Shown: one piece after another, positions 3,264 through 53,300 of the stretch
Layout: each line of letters starts with the position of its first letter
How positions within the stretch are numbered: the stretch's first letter is position 1
Made by a program: the position numbers and the translations under genes
DNA from: Pediococcus ethanolidurans
GTDB taxonomy: Bacteria; Bacillota; Bacilli; Lactobacillales; Lactobacillaceae
Length of the DNA: 64,000 nt
Direction: 5' to 3'
Assembly: GCF_001437405.1 (NCBI RefSeq)
Contig: NZ_JQBY01000006.1
Span: forward strand, 1 to 64,000
Notes under the pieces: model-generated
Seen by the model: the letters and a program-made list of their open reading frames with translations, nothing else
Told to the model about the DNA's origin: nothing
Database searches by the model: none

Positions 3264-3641
3264 TTGGATATTAAAACAGTTAGTAAAAAATTCGACTTAC
3301 CGGCACCGACCCTACGTTATTACGAGGAAGTTGGTTTAATCCCACCAGTTCGCCGTAATGCCAGTGGTTATCGGGACTATGACAAAATTGATCTTGAGTG
3401 GGTCAATTTTGCTAAATGTATGCGTGAAACCGATATTTCGATTGAAGTCCTAAAACAGTATGCAGAATTAGCGCAGCAGGGCGAACAAACCGAAGACCAG
3501 CGTAAACAAATATTAATTGAACAACAACGGGTGTTGGAGCAACAAATGCAAAAACTACAACACACTCACGATTTCTTAGATACTAAAATTGCAACATATG
3601 AGCAACACGCCAAACTAATGGAGCGGATCGTTAAAAATTAA
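3264..3641 (+). CDS. MerR family transcriptional regulator
   Basis: A 125-residue regulator. The winged helix-turn-helix occupies residues 1-45 with the family signature TLRYYEEVGLIPP (16-28). A second helical segment and a C-terminal coiled coil for dimerisation (about 80-118, Gln-rich) follow. There is no cysteine-rich metal-binding tail; this form is typical of the NmlR/AdhR-like group that senses aldehydes or electrophiles. The start is TTG 3264 behind CGGAGG at 3251-3256. The gene is 75 bp upstream of the flavin oxidoreductase gene, whose promoter has the distinctive MerR layout, so that gene is the probable target. Confidence 0.9.
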   Translation: MDIKTVSKKFDLPAPTLRYYEEVGLIPPVRRNASGYRDYDKIDLEWVNFAKCMRETDISIEVLKQYAELAQQGEQTEDQRKQILIEQQRVLEQQMQKLQHTHDFLDTKIATYEQHAKLMERIVKN

Positions 3642-3651
3642 AACAAAATGC

Positions 3652-3682
3652 TTGCTTTCAAGTCGACTTGAAGGTTTATCCT
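3652..3682 (+). promoter_or_regulatory. MerR-type promoter with 19-bp spacer and palindromic operator
   Basis: -35 TTGCTT (3652-3657), a 19-bp spacer, and -10 TATCCT (3677-3682). A perfect 16-bp palindrome, TTCAAGTCGACTTGAA (3657-3672), fills the spacer. An over-long spacer with the operator inside it is the hallmark of promoters untwisted by MerR proteins. It drives the OYE gene at 3717. Confidence 0.85.
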
Positions 3683-3716
3683 GTTTGATGTTAACTAAAA
3701 GAAAGCAGGCATAGAA

Positions 3717-4829
3717 ATGAATAAACAAAAATTACAGCAACCTTTTTCCTTAAATGAACAAGTTACTTTACAAAATCATATTGTAATGTCACCAATGACA
3801 ACTTGGTCCAGTCACGCTGATCAAACAGTATCCAATGCAGAAGTAACCTATTATGGCGCACGAGCTACGAGTGTTGGTATGGTGATCACAGGTTCCAGCC
3901 ACGTGCAAGAAAATGGCGTTGGTTTTGCTAATGAATTAGGTGTATACGCGGATCGTTTTATTCCCGGTTTGACTAAATTAGCCAGGGCCATCAAAGCTGG
4001 TGATGCCAAGGCAGTTTTGCAGTTAAATCATGCTGGTAACAAAGCTTTACCACAGTTTATTTCTAATCACGATGTTGTCAGCGCCAGTCCTGTTACTGCA
4101 CCCGAAACGCCTTTTGCACCGGCACAAACACCACGTGCATTGACGGAGACCGAGATTCTACAAGTGGTCAAAGATTTTGGTGCCGCTACAAGACGAGCCA
4201 TTGAAGCTGGTTTTAATGGTGTTGAGATTCATGGCGCCCATGGTTTCTTAATCCAAAACTTTTTATCACCGCATTACAACCAACGGACTGATCAGTGGGG
4301 CGGTAGTTTAACCAATCGCTTACGGTTTGCAATGGCAGTAGTAGATGAGGTCAAACGCGTAGCTGCGGAATATGCAGATCGGTCATTTATTATTGGTTAT
4401 CGAATTTCTCTAGAGGAACGTGAAGCAGATGGTCTCAGTTTGACCGATACAGAAGCGCTCATTAAGCAACTTATTACCAAAAAGATTAGTTACTTACATC
4501 TTTCCTTGGGTGATGCTTTAACTGATCATGAGCATAATAGTGAAGACACAACACCATTTATTCAACGAATTTCAAAATTGGTTAACCACCGTATACCTTT
4601 GATCGCAGCCGGTTCGTTTAATTCATTTGCGCGTATGGAAAAAGGATTAGCTAGTGGATTAGATTTAGTAGCGGTTGGCAGTGCATTGGTTGCTCATCCA
4701 GATTTATTTAGCCAGGTAAAGTTACCTTTAATATTGTCGGCTAATGGCGTAGACTCAATTGATTTACCCAAAAATATGTTTGAAGCGATAAAGCGGATTG
4801 GTGCATTTACTTTTCAATTTACCGAATAG
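3717..4829 (+). CDS. NADH:flavin oxidoreductase, Old Yellow Enzyme family
   Basis: A 370-residue FMN-dependent TIM-barrel ene-reductase. Visible family marks are the N-terminal VMSPMTTW strand, the active-site segment EIHGAHGFLIQNFLSPHYN near residue 175 (the family more often has HxAHGYLxxxFLSP), then RTDQWGGS, and the phosphate-binding end IAAGSF followed by VAVGSALVAHPD. Such enzymes reduce activated C=C bonds, often detoxifying electrophiles, and act in the cytoplasm. It follows its MerR-type promoter directly and is probably induced by the MerR protein. The start is ATG 3717; the RBS (AAAGCAGG) is moderate. Confidence 0.92.
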   Translation: MNKQKLQQPFSLNEQVTLQNHIVMSPMTTWSSHADQTVSNAEVTYYGARATSVGMVITGSSHVQENGVGFANELGVYADRFIPGLTKLARAIKAGDAKAVLQLNHAGNKALPQFISNHDVVSASPVTAPETPFAPAQTPRALTETEILQVVKDFGAATRRAIEAGFNGVEIHGAHGFLIQNFLSPHYNQRTDQWGGSLTNRLRFAMAVVDEVKRVAAEYADRSFIIGYRISLEEREADGLSLTDTEALIKQLITKKISYLHLSLGDALTDHEHNSEDTTPFIQRISKLVNHRIPLIAAGSFNSFARMEKGLASGLDLVAVGSALVAHPDLFSQVKLPLILSANGVDSIDLPKNMFEAIKRIGAFTFQFTE

Positions 4830-5536: not shown

Positions 5537-6412
5537 TTAATGAATGATTTTTTGAATTGTTTCAATAAACAGCCGACTCACGTTAGGTAAACGTCGATTT
5601 TTACTCCAAATTAAAATATTAGGATCGGTTAATTTAGGCCCTAGTGGTCGAAATACCAATTCACTATTCTCGGATGTGTCAACTAGATCTTCGTAAGTTA
5701 AGGCCATACAAGCACCAGTTTTAATTAATAAACTTGCATTAAAAATAAGGTTATAGGTACCAATAAAGTTAAACTGATCTGTAAGTTCGTTACCCCACTC
5801 TTTAAAAATACCACGTTGTTTTGCTTGCGCAGAAACAATTAGTGACCGACCAATGAGATCAGTAGCAGTAATTACTTTATTGTGAGCAAGTTGCTCATCT
5901 GCACGCATCAAAACACCCCATCTATTTTCTTCTGGGAGCATGATTGAATTGTAATTATCAAATTGACGATGACCCATAATAATGCCAAATTCAAGAGCAC
6001 CACTATCTAATTGACGTTGAATCAAATCTGCATCACCACTTCGCAAGTTGATGTGAACTTGTGGATATTTATGGACGATTTGCTGAACTGCCAGCATTAC
6101 ATAATTCATGGCATTACTTTCGCCACCACCAATATCAAGTGTTCCACTGACGACATCTTGTTTTTGTAAATTATAGGTAGTTTTGTCGACCATCCCAATA
6201 ATTTCTTGTGCTCGTTCCAATAGATAGTAACCCTCTTGTGTCAATTTTAACTGTCGATGGCCACGATCAAAAAGTTTAATATTTAGTTCCGTTTCTAGGT
6301 CAGCGATTTGACGTGATAATGCTGGTTGAGAAACGTGTAACAACTGTGCTGCATGAGAAATGTTTTGTTCCTGTGCAATTGCAACAAAGTAGCGTAGTAC
6401 TCGAATATCCAT
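5537..6412 (-). CDS. LysR family transcriptional regulator
   Basis: A 291-residue LysR-type activator or repressor. The N-terminal winged helix-turn-helix is plain at residues 17-40 (NISHAAQLLHVSQPALSRQI), and the effector-binding periplasmic-binding-protein-like domain follows from about 90. It is transcribed divergently from the acyltransferase-SDR-alcohol dehydrogenase operon at 6536. The 123-bp gap contains three TAACTATA half-sites. By family habit it controls that operon and itself, with a small metabolite as co-inducer. The start is the ATG at 6412. Confidence 0.93.
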   Translation of the reverse strand: MDIRVLRYFVAIAQEQNISHAAQLLHVSQPALSRQIADLETELNIKLFDRGHRQLKLTQEGYYLLERAQEIIGMVDKTTYNLQKQDVVSGTLDIGGGESNAMNYVMLAVQQIVHKYPQVHINLRSGDADLIQRQLDSGALEFGIIMGHRQFDNYNSIMLPEENRWGVLMRADEQLAHNKVITATDLIGRSLIVSAQAKQRGIFKEWGNELTDQFNFIGTYNLIFNASLLIKTGACMALTYEDLVDTSENSELVFRPLGPKLTDPNILIWSKNRRLPNVSRLFIETIQKIIH

Positions 6413-6428
6413 TAGTTTAGCTCTTTTC

Positions 6429-6491
6429 TAACTATAGGTTATCGTTATAGTTATTGATGTTTTATAAGTATTTAACATTATATTAACTATA
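6429..6491. promoter_or_regulatory. Candidate LysR operator with three TAACTATA half-sites
   Basis: TAACTATA (6429-6436) and its exact complement TATAGTTA (6446-6453) form an inverted repeat with a 9-bp spacer next to the lysR start. A third copy, TAACTATA, lies at 6484-6491 toward the divergent operon. A high-affinity palindrome plus a promoter-proximal site is the usual LysR layout. Confidence 0.65.
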
Positions 6492-6535
6492 TCATATACT
6501 ACAGTCAAGCAAGAACTTAGGAATGAGGTATTGAA

Positions 6536-7084
6536 GTGGAATCAAAAATGAATTTAGGAACAGGTGCTTACGATCAAGTTGAAGCCATTAATGCAATTAA
6601 TCAGCCGTTGATACAACAGTTAAATACTGGTACACACGATCAAGTAGAGATTCGACAACTCATTAGCCAAATTACGAATGAACGAATCGATGAAACAACT
6701 GAAATTCGACTGCCGTTTTATTCTGATTTTGGTCGAAATTTACACATCGGTAAAAATGTATTCATTAATAGTGGCACGATGTTTACTGACTTAGGTGGAA
6801 TATACATTGGTGATCACGTTTTAATTGGTCCCAATGTAACAATTGCATCCGTTAATCATGTGATGGAACCAAGAAATCGACGAAATCTAATCTTAAAACC
6901 AGTGTATATTCACGATAATGCCTGGCTGGGTGCTAATGCTACTGTGACACCGGGTGTTGTAATTGGCGAGAATGCGATTGTTGCTGCCGGAGCCGTAGTA
7001 ACACGTAATGTTGCAGCTAATACGATCGTCGGCGGTGTACCTGCACGACTAATTAAAATAATTAAAACTAAAGGAGAACAATAA
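6536..7084 (+). CDS. Acyltransferase with left-handed beta-helix (maltose/galactoside O-acetyltransferase type)
   Basis: A 182-residue hexapeptide-repeat acyltransferase. An N-terminal helical segment is followed by LPFYSDFGRNLHIGKNVFINSG (start of the LbH domain, ~59-80) and repeated hexapeptides (IGDHVLIGPNVTI, VIGENAIVAAGAVV). The catalytic histidine is probably H108 in ASVNH. Members transfer acetyl from acetyl-CoA to sugars or similar acceptors as trimers. The start is GTG 6536 with GAGG at 6525-6528; an ATG at 6548 is the alternative. It is the first gene of a three-gene operon facing lysR. Confidence 0.88.
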   Translation: MESKMNLGTGAYDQVEAINAINQPLIQQLNTGTHDQVEIRQLISQITNERIDETTEIRLPFYSDFGRNLHIGKNVFINSGTMFTDLGGIYIGDHVLIGPNVTIASVNHVMEPRNRRNLILKPVYIHDNAWLGANATVTPGVVIGENAIVAAGAVVTRNVAANTIVGGVPARLIKIIKTKGEQ

Positions 7085-37242: not shown

Positions 37243-37377
37243 ATGAGGGAATATATGCAGGGCATTTTGGACATTATCGGCGCTGGTTGTGGCTGTTCGG
37301 TGATTCTTTTAGCAGCAGCTGGAATTATTATGTTACTGGTCAAGTCCATCACGTTACTTTGGCAATTGATATTTTAG
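37243..37377 (+). CDS. Very small membrane protein
   Basis: 44 residues with a long hydrophobic stretch (about 7-34) containing a GCGC motif. RBS AGAGGAGAT. Function unknown. Confidence 0.55.
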   Translation: MREYMQGILDIIGAGCGCSVILLAAAGIIMLLVKSITLLWQLIF

Positions 37378-37474
37378 ACAGCAAAAAAGCCGATACCTAA
37401 AGATACCAGCTTCCTCGATATAGTTGGACCACTCAACTTCAATTATATCACGGAACACAGGGGAGTGGCGACTT

Positions 37475-37936
37475 TTGGAAAAAGATTATCCTAACTGGTA
37501 TCTGCATAGTTTATCAGTTGATTTAGGTAAAACGGCTGTCAATGTTAAGCGATTTTTTAAAAAAGAATATCCTCGTATGTGCAGAGTTGCCGGCATAAAT
37601 CCTGCTTCGATCAAGTCGCCCTCCATGGACGGCATGCCTAAGAGCGAAGGCTTTGGTAATTCGGCCGAGGAAAAAGTAGTAGATCATCTCGGCAAGTTAG
37701 AACAGGTTGAATTAGTACTTAAGGCGATTCGTTATTGTGATGCTACGTCACAGTTTATCTTGATTGAAAGCTTAATTCAGCATAAGAGCAACGATATTGT
37801 ATCGGATGAGTTAGGCTACATGAATTCACGATTCAGCGACTACAAGACATATGCATTACAAGCGTTCGCAGATTCTTACGAAGGTATTGCGAATGTTGAC
37901 TTGCACGTCTATGACGAAGAAAAAATAAAATCGTAA
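37475..37936 (+). CDS. ArpU family late transcriptional regulator
   Basis: 153 residues of the ArpU/late-regulator type: NWYLHSLSVDLGKTAVNVKRFF, KLEQVELVLKAIRYCDATSQFILIES, and YMNSRFSDYKTYALQAFADSYE. Members sit at the end of the early region of Gram-positive phages and switch on packaging and structural genes. TTG 37475 has GGGGAG nine bases upstream; an upstream ATG at 37424 has none. A striking array of 11-bp repeats begins four bases after its stop. Confidence 0.85.
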   Translation: MEKDYPNWYLHSLSVDLGKTAVNVKRFFKKEYPRMCRVAGINPASIKSPSMDGMPKSEGFGNSAEEKVVDHLGKLEQVELVLKAIRYCDATSQFILIESLIQHKSNDIVSDELGYMNSRFSDYKTYALQAFADSYEGIANVDLHVYDEEKIKS

Positions 37937-37940
37937 TTTT

Positions 37941-37990
37941 ATCGGATTTTTATCGGAATTATTTCGGAATTTTATCGGAAAAACATCGGA
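37941..37990 (+). promoter_or_regulatory. Five ATCGGA repeats at exact 11-bp spacing (candidate late-activator sites)
   Basis: Copies begin at 37941, 37952, 37963 (TTCGGA), 37974 and 37985. One helical turn apart, they would face the same side of the DNA. A -10-like TATATT is at 38013-38018 with no good -35, as expected of an activated promoter. ArpU encoded directly upstream is the obvious candidate binder. Confidence 0.7.
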
Positions 37991-38125
37991 CATATTGCGC
38001 TTAAAACGGGGTTATATTGGTAATATCGAAAGATTAAGCAACTGGTGTTCAAGTCCATTTTATATCTACCTCCTTTCTAAATAATTGACGATTACAAGTT
38101 TTACAAACGAACAATCTTTCGAGGC

Positions 38126-38183
38126 ACTGTCGTCGTTTAATTCGGTAAGACGGAAAATGCGGGTTCGAATCCCGTCGGCAGTA
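38126..38183 (+). ncRNA. tRNA-like RNA 1, no anticodon arm
   Basis: Acceptor-like stem actgtcg / cggcagt (7 bp, one wobble) with a following A. A tRNA-type D arm (gtt, loop TAATTCGGTAA, gac). A perfect T arm gcggg-TTCGAAT-cccgt sits directly against the acceptor strand. Only seven bases (ggaaaat) replace the anticodon arm and variable loop, so it cannot decode. The 58-nt fold is too regular to be chance. No CCA is encoded. Confidence 0.65.
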
Positions 38184-38185
38184 TT

Positions 38186-38241
38186 GAGATAGCTACAGTC
38201 ACTAAGACGTATGTGTGGCCGTACACAATCGTAACTATCTC
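38186..38241 (+). ncRNA. Structured spacer hairpin between the tRNA-like folds
   Basis: Long stem gagatag-c-tac / gta-a-ctatctc (10 bp, one mismatch) enclosing a smaller hairpin, tgtgt / acaca. It stacks directly between the two tRNA-like folds. Confidence 0.5.
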
Positions 38242-38242
38242 G

Positions 38243-38347
38243 TATCGAGTGGCGGAATAGGTAGACGCAAGGCAAGGTATTGAACAGACGCACGCAGTCA
38301 TGGACAGTCATTCAATACTATGTGTGGTGCAAATCCACACTTCGATA
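38243..38347 (+). ncRNA. tRNA-Leu-like RNA 2 without a normal anticodon arm
   Basis: Acceptor-like stem tatcgag / ttcgata (7 bp, one wobble). D-arm region TGGCGGAATAGGTAGACGC matches bacterial tRNA-Leu. T arm tgtgg-TGCAAAT-ccaca. In place of a 5+7 anticodon arm there is a 7-bp stem gtattga / tcaatac closing a 28-nt loop that contains a direct repeat, cagtcat. No valid anticodon is visible. Confidence 0.6.
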
Positions 38348-38428
38348 TTGGTTTTTGTGAGGAGAATCTAATTGATAGTTACCCACGAATAAGTATCAAT
38401 TTGGATCTCTGGTTAAGACCAACAAGTT

Positions 38429-38450
38429 AGACGGGAAACCGTCTTTTTTT
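38429..38450 (+). terminator. Terminator after the tRNA-like cluster
   Basis: 6-bp stem agacgg / ccgtct with a GAAA tetraloop, then TTTTTT. It would end a ~430-nt transcript from the promoter near 38013, before the terminase genes. The stretch 37991-38479 contains no protein gene. Confidence 0.8.
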
Positions 38451-38479
38451 GTTGCGTTAATTTTAAGGAGGAAAACAAG

Positions 38480-38758
38480 ATGGAAACGAGTAATACGAAT
38501 GATCATACAATCAAATCAACTGACGGTGCTCCAATTTACCAGTATAAGGGTTCTCATGCAAAGAAGGACTTTGATGTTAGGAAGGACGGGATTATGGGTG
38601 TGAATCTCAACGGCAATAAGGTTGAGTTAGATGATGGAATGCTACCAGATGTTATTGCCAGCTTGCGAGCACAAGTTGCTGATCTTTTCGGAACAGTTAG
38701 TAAACTTGAAACAACCATTACAGAGCTAAGAAGTGATGATTATGATAAATACAAATAA
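38480..38758 (+). CDS. Small phage protein upstream of terminase
   Basis: 92 residues. A polar N-terminus (GAPIYQYKGSHAKKDFDVRK) and a C-terminal coiled coil (LRAQVADLFGTVSKLETTITELR). RBS AAGGAGG. Function unknown; position suggests a late-operon leader gene. Confidence 0.65.
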   Translation: METSNTNDHTIKSTDGAPIYQYKGSHAKKDFDVRKDGIMGVNLNGNKVELDDGMLPDVIASLRAQVADLFGTVSKLETTITELRSDDYDKYK

Positions 38759-38947: not shown

Positions 38948-39541
38948 ATGAAGCGAAAATTAACGGCAAAACAGAAAAAGTTTGCCAATGAATTCATTAA
39001 AACTAACAACGCCTATCAATCGGCTATAAACGCAGGCTACGCAAAGGGTACAGCTCGGAACGCAACTAAACAATTACTGGAAAATACTGGAATTCATGAA
39101 TATATCATTAAAAAGACTGGCAACGTTGAAAAGCGTGAGTCTGACGAAGCTGACGAAGTGCTAAAAAACATCTATCGAATTGCTGCTGGTAAGCCTATCA
39201 AACGCGATTTTGTTCAAACCGACAACTTAAAAAAAGAAATTGCTTTGAGAGGCGTAAAAAAGGGATCTAAGCCAACAGCTACTATGAGATCTGGATATGA
39301 AACGAATGAGACCTCTATAACGCCAGCTGCTACCAAGGAGCAAGTAGCCGCAGCTGAACTGTGGTTCAAACTAAATGGTAAGCTCAAAAATGATAGTAAA
39401 GAGGTCGAAAAGCAAAAAATTCGCAAGCTTGAAGCAGATGCTGATATAGCCAAATTTAAAGCTAAAATGCTCATGGGTGATACAGATGGCATTGATAAGA
39501 CGGTAATTCTAGACGATTTAGAAGGTGATCAAGATGAGTGA
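38948..39541 (+). CDS. terS: Terminase small subunit
   Basis: 197 residues of the terminase_2 type: KLTAKQKKFANEFIKTNNAYQSAINAGY is the classic N-terminal helix-turn-helix that binds the pac/cos site. Central GKPIKRDF and C-terminal helices follow (KQKIRKLEADADIAKFKAKM), used for oligomerisation and contact with the large subunit. RBS GGAGGTG. Confidence 0.9.
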   Translation: MKRKLTAKQKKFANEFIKTNNAYQSAINAGYAKGTARNATKQLLENTGIHEYIIKKTGNVEKRESDEADEVLKNIYRIAAGKPIKRDFVQTDNLKKEIALRGVKKGSKPTATMRSGYETNETSITPAATKEQVAAAELWFKLNGKLKNDSKEVEKQKIRKLEADADIAKFKAKMLMGDTDGIDKTVILDDLEGDQDE

Positions 39542-40844
39542 AATTAAGATTAGTCAACTTGTTAATCCTCACTTCTCTAAGTTGTGGAATACTAAGCGAC
39601 CTTATGTGATTGCTAAGGGTGGCCGTGGGTCATTCAAGTCATCAACGATTAGCTTAAAACTGGTTATGATGCTTAAAAAACAAGCCCAGTTTGGCCATAA
39701 AGCTAACGTGATCTGTATTCGTGAGAATCAAACCAATTTACGTGATTCGGTCTTCGGACAAATTCAGTGGGCAATTGGTATGCTGCACATGTCTAATGAG
39801 TTTAAGAGCACGACAAGCCCAATGCACATCACACACATTACTTCTGGCAATACGTTTTACTTTTATGGTGCGAATGATCCTGAACGTTTGAAGTCTAACA
39901 CAGTGCCTAATGTGATTGGACTCTGGTACGAAGAAGCTGCTAACTTCAAGAGCGCCGAAGTATTCGATGAGACGAACCCGACATTTATCCGTAACAAATC
40001 GCCGTGGGTTAATGACGTTAAGATATATTATTCATACAACCCGCCTAGGAATCCGTACGATTGGATCAACGAGTGGATAACGGACAATGAGAGCGATTCA
40101 GACTATCTAATTGATACTTCGACTTATCTTGATGACAAACTTAATATCACGACTGATCAGCAGCTTAAGTTGATTGAGAAGTACAAAAAGAACGACTTCG
40201 ATTATTATCGTTGGCTGTATCTGGGCGAGCCAGTTGGATTAGGTACCAATATTTACAACATGAATTTATTTCATAAATGGAATTCTATCCCAGATGATGA
40301 CCGGATTCGTGCTATTTATTTCTCGCAAGATAGTGGGCAAGAAGTATCAGCAACCACCGAATCGTGCTTTGGCTTGACCACGCAGGGCAATGTGGTGTTG
40401 TTGAACACCTATTACTACAGCCCAGTTAAGAAGGTCAACAAGAAAGCACCAAGTGAGTTTGTAGAGGACTTATACAAGTTCGAGAATGACTGTATTAATG
40501 AATGGGGCATGTATCCAGTCAAACGTTCAGCTGATTCGGCCACGTCTGATTTTGCCTTAGATCATCAATATTTTTTGAAGTATGGCAATCATTGGCATCA
40601 CGTGGCCAAGAAAAAGAAAACACAAATGATTGATAACGTTCAAAACTTACTCGCCCAGGGTAGGTTTTTTTATTTGGCAAAGCCTGAGAATGATATTTTC
40701 ATAGACGAAAATAGACGCTATCAATGGGATGCAGATACATTACAGAGTGATGATCCTAAGGTAATCAAGGAGCACGACCATACTTGCGATTCATTTCAGT
40801 ATTTTGTGTTAGACAATTTAAGAGATTTAGGCCTCAAATTCTAG
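39534..40844 (+). CDS. terL: Terminase large subunit
   Basis: 436 residues of the PBSX/SPP1-type packaging ATPase-nuclease. Walker A-like AKGGRGSFKSST is near residue 28, an adenine-binding region precedes it, and Walker B-like VIGLWYEEAANF is near 128. The nuclease domain includes SQDSGQEVSAT and KRSADSATSDFALDHQYF. ATG 39534 is supported by AAGGTG six bases upstream and overlaps terS by 8 bp. It pumps DNA into the prohead through the portal. Confidence 0.93.
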   Translation: MSEIKISQLVNPHFSKLWNTKRPYVIAKGGRGSFKSSTISLKLVMMLKKQAQFGHKANVICIRENQTNLRDSVFGQIQWAIGMLHMSNEFKSTTSPMHITHITSGNTFYFYGANDPERLKSNTVPNVIGLWYEEAANFKSAEVFDETNPTFIRNKSPWVNDVKIYYSYNPPRNPYDWINEWITDNESDSDYLIDTSTYLDDKLNITTDQQLKLIEKYKKNDFDYYRWLYLGEPVGLGTNIYNMNLFHKWNSIPDDDRIRAIYFSQDSGQEVSATTESCFGLTTQGNVVLLNTYYYSPVKKVNKKAPSEFVEDLYKFENDCINEWGMYPVKRSADSATSDFALDHQYFLKYGNHWHHVAKKKKTQMIDNVQNLLAQGRFFYLAKPENDIFIDENRRYQWDADTLQSDDPKVIKEHDHTCDSFQYFVLDNLRDLGLKF

Positions 40845-50373: not shown

Positions 50374-53300
50374 ATGGCAAAAGCAGACGGACAGGTTTTA
50401 ATCTCGCTTGACATTGACGACAATACAAAGGCACCTATTGAAAAAGCTGAATCTCGACTGAAACAGCTTGGTAAAGGTGCTGGTGATGAATTAGATAAGT
50501 CGATGAAGTCCAACGCCAATAAGACCGAGGAAGCTGCTAAGAAAGCTTCAAACGTCATTGAGGGCGAATTTAAGAAACCTGTATCAAAAAAGCTTAATGT
50601 TAAAGCTGATCAAGCTAAGAAAGAAATCAAATCTATTGAATCTGATACCGCTAAATTGGTTAGAGGCAACAATGATGTTAAGTTTAAAGTTACTGGGGAC
50701 GCGTCCGAAAAGACTAAAGAGATTTTTAACAATGCTGAAAAGGTCACTAGAGGTAATCATGACGTTGTTATTGATGAAAAAGGGAATGCAAAGCAAAAAA
50801 CTGATGAAGTTTCTGAATCATTGGATAGTGCTAAGGACAAAAGTTTAAAGCTCAAAGATGTTATTTCTGGTACATTCATTGGTGGTGCTTTAATCGGAGG
50901 AATTGGTGCAGCTGCTTCTGCAATTTCTGGTTTAAGTGGCGAGGCTATTAATGCTTCTGACTCGATTAATAAGTTCAAGTCTACCATGAAGCTTGGCGGT
51001 TTTGGAGACAAGGAAATTAATTCAGCTACCAAAGAAGTTCAAAAGTATGCCAATGACACTGTCTATGATTTGAATACCGTTTCGAATACCACTGCACAGT
51101 TGGCGGCTAATGGTATTAAGAATTACACCCAGTTAACAGAAGCGGCAGGTAACTTGAATGCTCAAGCTGGTGGTAATGCTGACACTTTCAAATCAGTGGC
51201 TATGATGCTTACACAAACCGCTGGTGCTGGTAAGTTAACCACAGAAAACTGGAACCAATTATCCGATGCTATTCCTGGTGCTTCTGGAGTTTTACAAGCA
51301 CAAATGAAGAAGAATGGCGCATTCACGGGAAACTTTCGGGATGCGATGCAAAAAGGAAAAATTAGTTCAACCGAATTTAGCAAAGCAATTACCCAGTTAG
51401 GGATGAATGACGGCGCTAAGAAGGCTGCTAAGTCTACCACTACGTTTGAAGGTGCAGTAGGTAACATGGAAGCTGGTGTAGTTACTGGTATTCAAAATAT
51501 GATTGACGCATTTGGCAAAGGCAAAATAACCGGTGCTATCAATGTATTTTCTGGAATTTTAACTAAAGGTTTTGCAAAGTTAGTTAACGTTATTAAAAGT
51601 ACGATGAAGTTCTTAAGCCAATTGGGCAAAACACTTGCACCGATAACTTCCGCGTTTAAAAATCTAGCTGGGGCTTTGGCAGGACAATTGTTTAAGTCTG
51701 CTCTGGGTATAATTAAAAGCTTAGTTGGTTTTGTATCTAAGTTGTTTAAGACAACGGGTAATGGCAAACACAAGTCCATTGATGCTGTCGCTGGTGCTAT
51801 TAATGGGTTGGCTAAGAATAAACTAGCCATTAAGGTTATTGCAGATTCACTGATTGCTTTGATGGGTTACAAGATGGCAAAAAGTGGTTTAAGTCTAGCT
51901 GTTGGCTTGGCTGACAAACTAGTTATGAACTATGCCAAGTTATCAGATTTACCAGGCATTTTTAAAAATATGTTTGCAGTAAAAGATGGTGGCATTATAT
52001 CAAGTCTTGGCAAGCTAAAAGACGTGCCAAAAACAATTAGTAAACTAACCCCTAAGTCATTGGGTTCTAAGGCGTTATCTGAAGGTGGAGCTGCTGGCAA
52101 ACTTGCCACTGGTGCTGCGGGTGCTGGTGTTGCCGTTAGTGCTGGACTGGATATCTACAAAGCTTTTAAAGCCAAAAATCCAGAAAGTAAGTTCAAAAAT
52201 GCCGGTAAAGGACTGGGCACTGCTATTGGTGGTGGTCTTGGTCTATTTTTTGGTGGTCCATTAGGTGCTGCACTAGGTGCTACTATTGGTAAGGTCATTG
52301 GTGGCTGGGGTGGCAAAGGAGCCAAACTATTCGCTGATGGCTGGAATAAAAAAGGCAGAGGAGCCAAGCCTCCTAAGGGTTTCTTACCTAAGGCAGGCTA
52401 CTATGCACGTTCTGGTGTTGATGCTATCGTTAGCTGGGGTAAGGGCTTTGGCCGTGGTGTTGGCAAGATTCTAAAAAGCATAGGCAGATTCAATAAGCGA
52501 GTTGGCAGGGGCTTTCATACGGTGATCAAGATAATTGGCAACGTGCTTAAACCGGTTAAAAAAGTACTCGAGTACGCCCTTTTGATTCCAATTGCCTTAG
52601 TGGTTGGCTTAGCTATCAAAGCCTGGAGCAAAATGAAAAAGCCGTTCAAAGCTGTCATAGGTTTCATTCTAAAAGTTGTTAAGTCAGGATGGAAAATTAT
52701 TAAGTCAATTACCAAATCAACTTGGCGTGCATTTAAAAAATATGTAATCAACCCTGTTAAATCAGTATGGCGTGCGATTGATAAATATATCATTAAAACA
52801 ATTGTGAAAGCAATTAGATCAGCATGGAAGGGTATCAAATCACTAACTAGATCTACATGGAATGCATTCAAACGCTATATTCTCAACCCCATTAAAGCTG
52901 TGTGGAGTGCTGTAAACAAATATATCGTTAAATTAATTATCAATAATATCAAGAGCGCCTGGAAAGACATAAAATCAATTACCAAGACAGCTTGGAATTT
53001 GATTAAGAAATATGCGGTTGATCCAATTGTTTCTGTTTACGATAAAGTCAAATCCATCATGGGTAAGATGAAAAAAGCCATTTCAAGCGCAATGGGGAGC
53101 ATCAAGAATGTTTGGCATTCGGCATGGAGTAACGTTTCTGACTTCTTTAGTAGAATTTGGAAGTCTATTAAGAATCACGCCCAAGATGGCATTAATGCTG
53201 TTATTGGGGTAATCAATGCAGGCATCAATGGCATTGATGGTGTGATCCATACCTTTGGTGGTAAGAAGCACGCTATTGGTAGAATTAGGAAAGTACATTT

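Follow-up and report, generated by a model that had tools for sequence, protein, structure and literature searches.

A widespread and apparently undescribed family of phage RNAs with a tRNA-like body and an exchangeable domain in place of the anticodon arm

In tmRNA, the acceptor, T arm and D loop of a tRNA are kept, and a longer, pseudoknotted stretch stands in for the anticodon arm. Likewise, in the engineered tRNA scaffold the anticodon stem is replaced by another RNA, to which the tRNA body lends folding and stability. The cell-wall tRNA-Gly of staphylococci carries a G for U55 in its T loop and is kept out of translation. For the noncoding RNA YrlA, competitive inhibition of an anticodon nuclease by its tRNA-like domain has been suggested (PMC7790460), and ROOL and GOLLD are described as large structured RNAs of phages and prophages, often near tRNA islands (PMC12286853). 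Here we analyze two tRNA-like RNAs, E1 and E2, found in a 64,000-nucleotide stretch of Pediococcus ethanolidurans DNA (the window). As far as literature searches and Rfam 15 go, E2 belongs to an apparently undescribed, widespread family of phage RNAs.

Two tRNA-like RNAs between a late activator gene and the terminase genes

The features of the locus are listed below in window coordinates.

37424 to 37936, plus strand: gene of an ArpU-type late transcriptional activator (phrog_248, E 4.5e-28)
37931 to 37996, plus strand: 11-bp-phased direct repeats between the activator gene and the cluster, overlapping TTTTATCGGAA-like copies
38126 to 38183, plus strand: E1, 58-nt tRNA-like RNA without anticodon arm (Rfam tRNA, RF00005)
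38186 to 38241, plus strand: middle element, 7-bp closing stem with inner hairpins (fold z -2.30; 5 of 200 shuffles equally good)
38243 to 38348, plus strand: E2, tRNA-Leu-like body with the anticodon arm replaced (covariance model R1, 73.7 bits; pairing over 118 elements)
38252 to 38268, plus strand: D arm of E2 (comparison with tRNA-Leu(UAA))
38269 to 38321, plus strand: insert of E2, the exchangeable domain, 53 nt in place of the anticodon arm
38322 to 38340, plus strand: T arm of E2, six pairs (38322-38327/38335-38340), loop TGCAAAT (UGCAAAU) with G at position 55
38429 to 38451, plus strand: intrinsic terminator behind the tRNA-like cluster (stem 38429-38444 plus a T run)
38480 to 38758, plus strand: 92-aa protein past the terminator, no PHROGs family
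38948 to 39541, plus strand: terminase small subunit (phrog_51, E 2.2e-21)
39525 to 40844, plus strand: terminase large subunit (phrog_2, E 2.5e-47)

These family assignments confirm the site between arpU and the terminase genes given in the preliminary description, and both the hairpin between E1 and E2 and the terminator behind the cluster were found where it had placed them. Protein searches with the flanking genes returned one further record, from the same or a nearly identical phage. Directly past the activator gene, the TTTTATCGGAA-like copies overlap at a spacing of 11 bp, about one turn of DNA, and these repeats are likely binding sites of the late activator. They are all that stands at the putative late promoter placed just before the cluster, which is thus unproven, the promoter scan having located no sigma-70-like site within 37472-38716. 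No support was obtained either for a degenerate third copy at 38010-38060, which showed no Rfam match at E <= 1; positions 38000-38065 fold with a z of -0.60.

E1 has a 7-bp acceptor (38126-38132/38176-38182) followed by a discriminator A, a D arm at 38135-38151 and a T arm at 38159-38175 with the canonical loop TTCGAAT, U55 included, while a 7-nt linker occupies the place of the anticodon arm. Its acceptor and T arm form a stack of 7+5 bp, as in a decoding tRNA. The claimed 58-nt fold was confirmed by RF00005, which aligns over the full length of E1 and skips only the anticodon arm; in a search of 551 nt the match scored 38.1 bits (E 1.6e-6), above the gathering cutoff of 29. It was only this narrow Rfam search that revealed E1; ARAGORN and the default Rfam scan of the whole window reported neither element. 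Energy folding of E1 (z -1.18) lacked the D arm and did not return the cloverleaf.

The 7-bp acceptor of E2 is formed by 38243-38249/38341-38347, and positions 38249-38269 are identical to the same stretch of tRNA-Leu(UAA) in three other genomes (L011, L013 and L015). Within the insert there is an 8-bp stem, GTATTGAA/TTCAATAC, at 38277-38284/38311-38318, closing a loop of 26 nt; the insert folded alone has a z of -3.09, and our pseudoknot test detected no pseudoknot in it. The tRNA-like element of about 105 nt with a replaced anticodon arm thus stands as proposed, with its stem and loop corrected from 7 bp and 28 nt. The minimum free energy structure of E2 is a different long hairpin (z -2.89). 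The two tRNA-like RNAs are upheld, but folding by energy alone gives a cloverleaf for neither. The E2 fold is established by comparison between phages: its acceptor, its D and T arms and the elbow loops are supported by the pairing over 118 elements described below. An anticodon arm with a 7-nt loop, as required of a decoding tRNA, is absent in E1 and replaced in E2.

Spread and pairing of the E2 family

BLAST located the E2 core in two induced Latilactobacillus curvatus phages, where it also lies between a transcription regulator and the terminase; the acceptor bases differ from those of the window and yet pair, and the insert is a different one. By eye, a hairpin with a 7-bp closing stem is seen at the corresponding place between the elements of these phages. 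Additional copies came from a BLAST of 150 related genomes. A search pattern made from the D and T arms of E2, which fixes part of the D arm, the T loop and two T-stem pairs and allows a gap of 30-60, matched at least 120 viral stretches and 33 genome contigs, including contigs of Levilactobacillus, Weissella, Enterococcus, Listeria, Paenibacillus, Cohnella, Parageobacillus and Fictibacillus; some of the 33 come from metagenome-assembled genomes of other phyla and may be misbinned phage. For the alignment A1 one fully paired element was taken from each of 63 of the 80 insert types, and R1 was built from these 63 rows. The window element is one of these seed rows and scores 73.7 bits (E 1.2e-17), versus 43.8 bits at best for the real tRNA-Leu tested. 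Among known phages, R1 gave 70.8 bits in Sha1, 77.6 in phiJL-1, 74.5 in 8014-B2 and 72.3 and 57.0 for two copies in LP65, whose BLAST match was a fragment (27.2 bits) at another place than its two E2 elements. Several elements may occur on one contig: three in L119 and two each in L125, L130 and LP65. At 50 bits or more, E2 was present in 23 of 246 sampled genomes of the window's order, counting the window's own genome and nine of a single genus, and 5 of the 299 genomes in the phylum sample, again with its own, reached E <= 1e-9.

None of the 118 distinct E2 elements was called a tRNA by ARAGORN. With all 4227 Rfam families at E <= 1, the region 37930-38480 matched only tRNA (at E1), and no family reached E 0.5 over E2, insert included, in 16 further loci. 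The record feature tables of Sha1, phiJL-1, LP65 and 8014-B2 annotate no RNA in the E2 stretches. Title and abstract searches of open-licence papers returned no account of E2-type RNAs, and Rfam 15 contained no family for them where it was searched; to this extent the earlier suspicion of something undescribed was borne out.

The case for the fold is the pairing. Over the 118 elements, the seven acceptor pairs and the four outer T-stem pairs, all outside the search pattern, are standard pairs in 97.2% of cells, against 61.4% (maximum 64.4%) in 500 shuffles of the partners; with one element per insert type (n=80) the values are 96.7% and 60.6% (maximum 63.5%). Likewise, 62 of 79 distinct acceptors are fully paired, as opposed to 24 of 1000 swapped pairs. 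The preliminary description had proposed to look for compensatory changes in phage relatives, and the stems are indeed kept. The 100% pairing of A1 was not used as evidence because its rows were selected for full pairing, and 4 of the 118 pattern matches form only 4 or 5 of the 7 acceptor pairs. The middle pair of the D stem is C-G in 109 elements, U-A in 7, U-G in 1 and a C-A mismatch in 1. A sixth T-stem pair is formed in 116 of 118, and therefore acceptor and T stem make a 13-bp stack unlike the 7+5 of decoding tRNAs. The constancy of the D and T loops is in part imposed by the search pattern, which fixes G55; a constant T loop UGCAAAU is consequently unproven, since the pattern demanded that loop, and G55 is not universal because one LP65 copy, found by R1, has the normal TTCGAAT loop with U55.

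The acceptor sequences themselves vary, with 68 different 5' strands in the 118 elements, and so does the discriminator (A in 79, T in 28; mixed after helix extension). The variation bears on whether E2 could be a chargeable tRNA mimic, aminoacylated and serving or draining a non-ribosomal route. Leucyl-tRNA synthetase is not known to read the anticodon, the D arm of E2 is identical to that of tRNA-Leu(UAA), real tRNA-Leu comes next to E2 in R1 score, and a chromosomal copy described below adjoins azlCD, genes for branched-chain amino-acid transport. A charged RNA is nonetheless distinctly improbable in view of the varying discriminator and acceptor and of a 3' CCA in only 1 of 118 elements, although phage tRNAs can lack CCA too.

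Several side observations were made in the same records. The 901 bases at 37261-38161 of OP650937.1 ('Hujiaoplasma phage zrk29-2') are 100% identical to the IMG/VR contig L027. The other matches of this contig are Lactobacillus phages, and the Tenericutes host stated for OP650937.1 is doubtful. Viral contig L047 has its own tmRNA gene with tag peptide (6451-6796) in a tRNA array shared with an E2-like element that forms 5 of the 7 acceptor pairs. In L043, a tRNA called tRNA-Pyl (anticodon CTA) lies at 1343-1418 within a viral array of 15 tRNA genes, and in the viral contig L100 an Rfam epsC RNA (755-868, 68.9 bits) is located about 420 bases upstream of E2. A 96-nt tRNA-like element adjoins E2 in L035 (3709-3804), where an odd four-base anticodon was called, and in L091 (10418-10513); it is perhaps another variant of the E2 class.

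Exchangeable inserts, a chromosomal copy and the neighbourhood in phages

The inserts of the 118 elements, 26-78 nt long within the bounds set by the search pattern, sort into 80 types by shared words, and the statistics that follow use one element per type. In many inserts a stem ends about 2 nt before the T stem, and often bases in its loop pair with the strand that leads from the D arm to the stem, which makes an H-type pseudoknot. The mean stem score is 4.21, against 1.83 +/- 0.28 in 200 rounds of dinucleotide shuffling, and strong pseudoknots (score >= 5.5) are present in 18 of 80 inserts, compared with 5.0 +/- 2.2 (maximum 13) in 200 shuffle rounds. At least 25 of the 80 show no anchored stem at all in the stem test. 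Inserts of different types align at 54% identity on average, the middle nine tenths falling between 41 and 64%. The loci L026 and L101 share their acceptor and have flanks that are 98% and 88% identical, with inserts at 58%; L029 and L074 have flanks at 95% and 100% and inserts at 64%. By the 54% average and 41-64% range, both insert pairs are at the level of unrelated inserts, L029/L074 at its upper edge. Among 76 pairs alike in both flanks, which are not independent of each other, the inserts are less than 60% identical in 14. Conversely, in 20 pairs, such as L027/L049 and L037/L133, the same insert lies within different acceptors and flanks. These comparisons indicate that E2 inserts behave as cassettes that are exchanged between phages.

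A copy of E2 was also identified in the chromosomes of one genus of the window's order (inferred to be Lactobacillales; genomes of 3.2-3.5 Mb), where all nine species carry exactly one element at E <= 1e-7. In the two loci inspected (L150 and L154) it lies between azlCD and a DUF1361 gene, and the 7-kb stretch around it in one genome contains cellular genes only. Identity over the nine species reaches 100% in the 5' acceptor and D arm, 97.5% in the T arm and 3' acceptor and 95.7% in the insert, while azlC stands at 78.4%, azlD at 76.3% and the gaps on either side at 62.9% and 56.1%. The azlC and azlD genes align in all nine; the downstream side aligns more poorly in some (mean 56.4% for the DUF1361 stretch, lowest 29%). 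According to our own script, a promoter-like TTGCAT-17 nt-TGN-TANNAT precedes the acceptor by 20-22 nt and a terminator stem of 10-14 bp with a T run follows the element in 9 of 9 species; the standard scan, with a stricter consensus, found no plus-strand promoter and no terminator at the element in L150 and L154. There are no double-sided stem changes in the nine-species set, and the chromosomal type (L150) had no match on plasmids or phages. In our reading, this copy, which one genus has fixed in its chromosome, is an RNA gene in its own right and is subject to strong purifying selection.

The preliminary description had also offered a decayed array of phage tRNAs that lost their anticodon arms by deletion or insertion. 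Such an origin would agree with the D arm shared with tRNA-Leu(UAA) and with LP65, where E2 lies between real tRNAs and the record annotates two pseudo 'tRNA-OTHER' genes. For E2 it is contradicted by the covarying acceptor and T stems of the 118 elements, by the sixth T-stem pair kept in 116 and by the conservation in nine of nine species, and we regard decay as extremely improbable. The case against it is weaker for E1, given that short truncated tRNA-like elements recur upstream of E2 but are of several kinds. We looked for these on the E2 strand as tRNA-like folds of at most 70 nt not called by ARAGORN, in loci that are not independent. Eighteen were detected in 17 of 117 windows around E2 (113,563 bases), compared with one in 766,875 bases of the same loci outside these windows, and this lone distant one sits in the E2-bearing contig L086 and resembles the element of L023. 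Every one of the 18 begins upstream of E2, at 98-408 bases from its D arm. Judging from six representatives that were read and from the likeness of the others to them, ten have no anticodon arm, as E1 in the window, and eight keep a small hairpin at its place and have a reduced D arm. E1 is thus one of a group of truncated tRNA-like elements, of several kinds, that tend to precede E2. Short elements can exist without E2: the region of L046 that surrounds its short element is matched by phages J-1 and Lc-Nu, whose inspected stretches show no E2. In phage J-1 (L209), a 'hypothetical protein', J1_56, is annotated at 3571-3720 over this L046-like stretch and is possibly a false gene.

In the phages, the first upstream ORF of 66 loci belongs to phrog_248 in 17, phrog_36 in 15 and phrog_2198 in 7 (late activators; the counts may overlap), and terminase subunits and HNH nucleases are the commonest families downstream; these tallies cover 66 of 107 upstream and 138 of 219 downstream ORFs. 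Such an arrangement, with E2 between the late activator and the terminase and the next long ORF on its strand in 58 of 69 cases, is what would be seen if the elements were processing signals in cis, at which RNase P and RNase Z cut the late transcript at the head of the operon into defined pieces. But a terminator closes the cluster of the window, and terminator-like hairpins lie within 300 nt behind 18 of 75 E2 elements, as against 9 of 143 distant windows; moreover, cutting needs no structured, exchangeable insert and the chromosomal copy resembles a stand-alone gene, so that we hold a mere processing signal to be unlikely.

The phi29 pRNA is a packaging RNA, and E2 could play a comparable part in packaging or at the genome ends. 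Terminase and HNH genes are nearby, and in phiJL-1 only a few bases separate the end of E2 from the right end of the linear record. However, the E2 elements of LP65 and 8014-B2 are surrounded by tRNA genes of the same strand, and the stretches inspected have no annotated terminase, which weakens the packaging role considered in the preliminary description. The copy among cellular genes and the unrelated inserts within near-identical phage flanks argue in the same direction and make this role very improbable.

As side observations on these two phages, a ROOL RNA was located in LP65 (L207) at 52015-52589, inside the tRNA array that also includes E2, and is absent from the annotated features inspected; 8014-B2 (L208) has one at 6358-6930. 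The strand annotated for the LP65 tRNA array is opposite to that given by ARAGORN, probably through a strand error in the record, and one of its pseudo 'tRNA-OTHER' genes (L207 7952-8025) was called a tRNA-Pro by ARAGORN.

Possible role and comparison with known systems

Of the roles considered in the preliminary description, the idea of a tRNA mimic, which it had directed at processing enzymes, synthetases or ribosomes, is the one that stands as the leading reading. E1 and E2 are probably, though by no means certainly, noncoding RNAs on a tRNA body unable to decode, a scaffold that displays an exchangeable domain. The E2 RNA would be transcribed with the late region, and a promoter-like site of its own would serve the chromosomal copy. 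Since the RNA retains acceptor, T arm and elbow, the RNase P and RNase Z of the host may trim it into a stable small RNA. It would be kept out of translation by the missing anticodon, by the 13-bp acceptor/T stack and, in most of the copies recovered, by the G in place of U55, which in normal tRNAs contacts G18 at the elbow (PMC7912444). The tRNA body would then be the scaffold and the insert the working part.

A tRNA body that anticodon nucleases are unable to cut could occupy such nucleases. The likeliest single role for E2 would be to act in trans, as a decoy or inhibitor, on a factor of the host or of a rival that is directed at tRNA or RNA, for example an anticodon nuclease or an RNA-cleaving toxin, in a contest that diversifies the insert; this is a guess, and more apt to be wrong than right. 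The diversity of the inserts fits an arms race without proving one. In a broader and still tentative reading, which we find possible rather than probable, phages would possess a natural tRNA scaffold, shut out of translation, for swappable and frequently pseudoknotted cassettes that act in trans and probably target rival phages or an immunity directed at tRNA or RNA. The D and T arms would double as recombination handles, and at least one genus would have captured a cassette and kept it as a resident gene.

Two further identities were considered and rejected. An attP copy of a host tRNA-Leu was discarded by inference, as E2 adjoins terminase genes and its T arm is unlike that of tRNA-Leu, and a piece of ROOL or GOLLD was discarded as no match to either Rfam model was found at E2 in the window and the loci searched.

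E2 differs from decoding tRNAs, tmRNA, Y RNAs, ROOL and GOLLD in the comparisons made here, and for this reason, together with the lack of a literature account in our searches, we rate it as a new kind of tRNA-derived phage RNA. Such RNAs are skipped by ARAGORN and have no Rfam 15 family where searched, yet at least 120 viral stretches match. If our reading is true, phages would have, in this modular combination of a tRNA body with a swapped domain, a new means of deploying noncoding RNAs, and since the chromosomal element is single-copy, its function is directly testable by deletion.

With YrlA, E2 shares the nature of a noncoding RNA with a tRNA-like domain outside decoding (PMC7790460). It is unlike YrlA in being closed by its own 7-bp acceptor and in having an exchangeable insert, and there was no Y RNA match at E <= 1 in 37930-38480. 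ROOL is far larger, its model having 574 positions; RF03087 had no match in the window and was detected in 3 of 40 E2-bearing records, elsewhere than at E2, and GOLLD (RF01998) reached gathering neither in the window nor in any of 15 loci. The tRNA-like domain of tmRNA (RF00023) resembles E2 in keeping acceptor, T arm and D loop and in the replaced anticodon arm, but E2 has about 80-130 nt and an acceptor that is not constant, and no RF00023 match lay over it in the stretches searched; a 17-nt fragment match in L046, below gathering, falls on a short upstream element. The staphylococcal tRNA-Gly has the same G for U55 as the window element, but its anticodon arm is normal and it delivers glycine to the cell wall. 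Finally, the engineered tRNA scaffold is a laboratory construct, whereas the layout of E2 would be a natural and mobile one.
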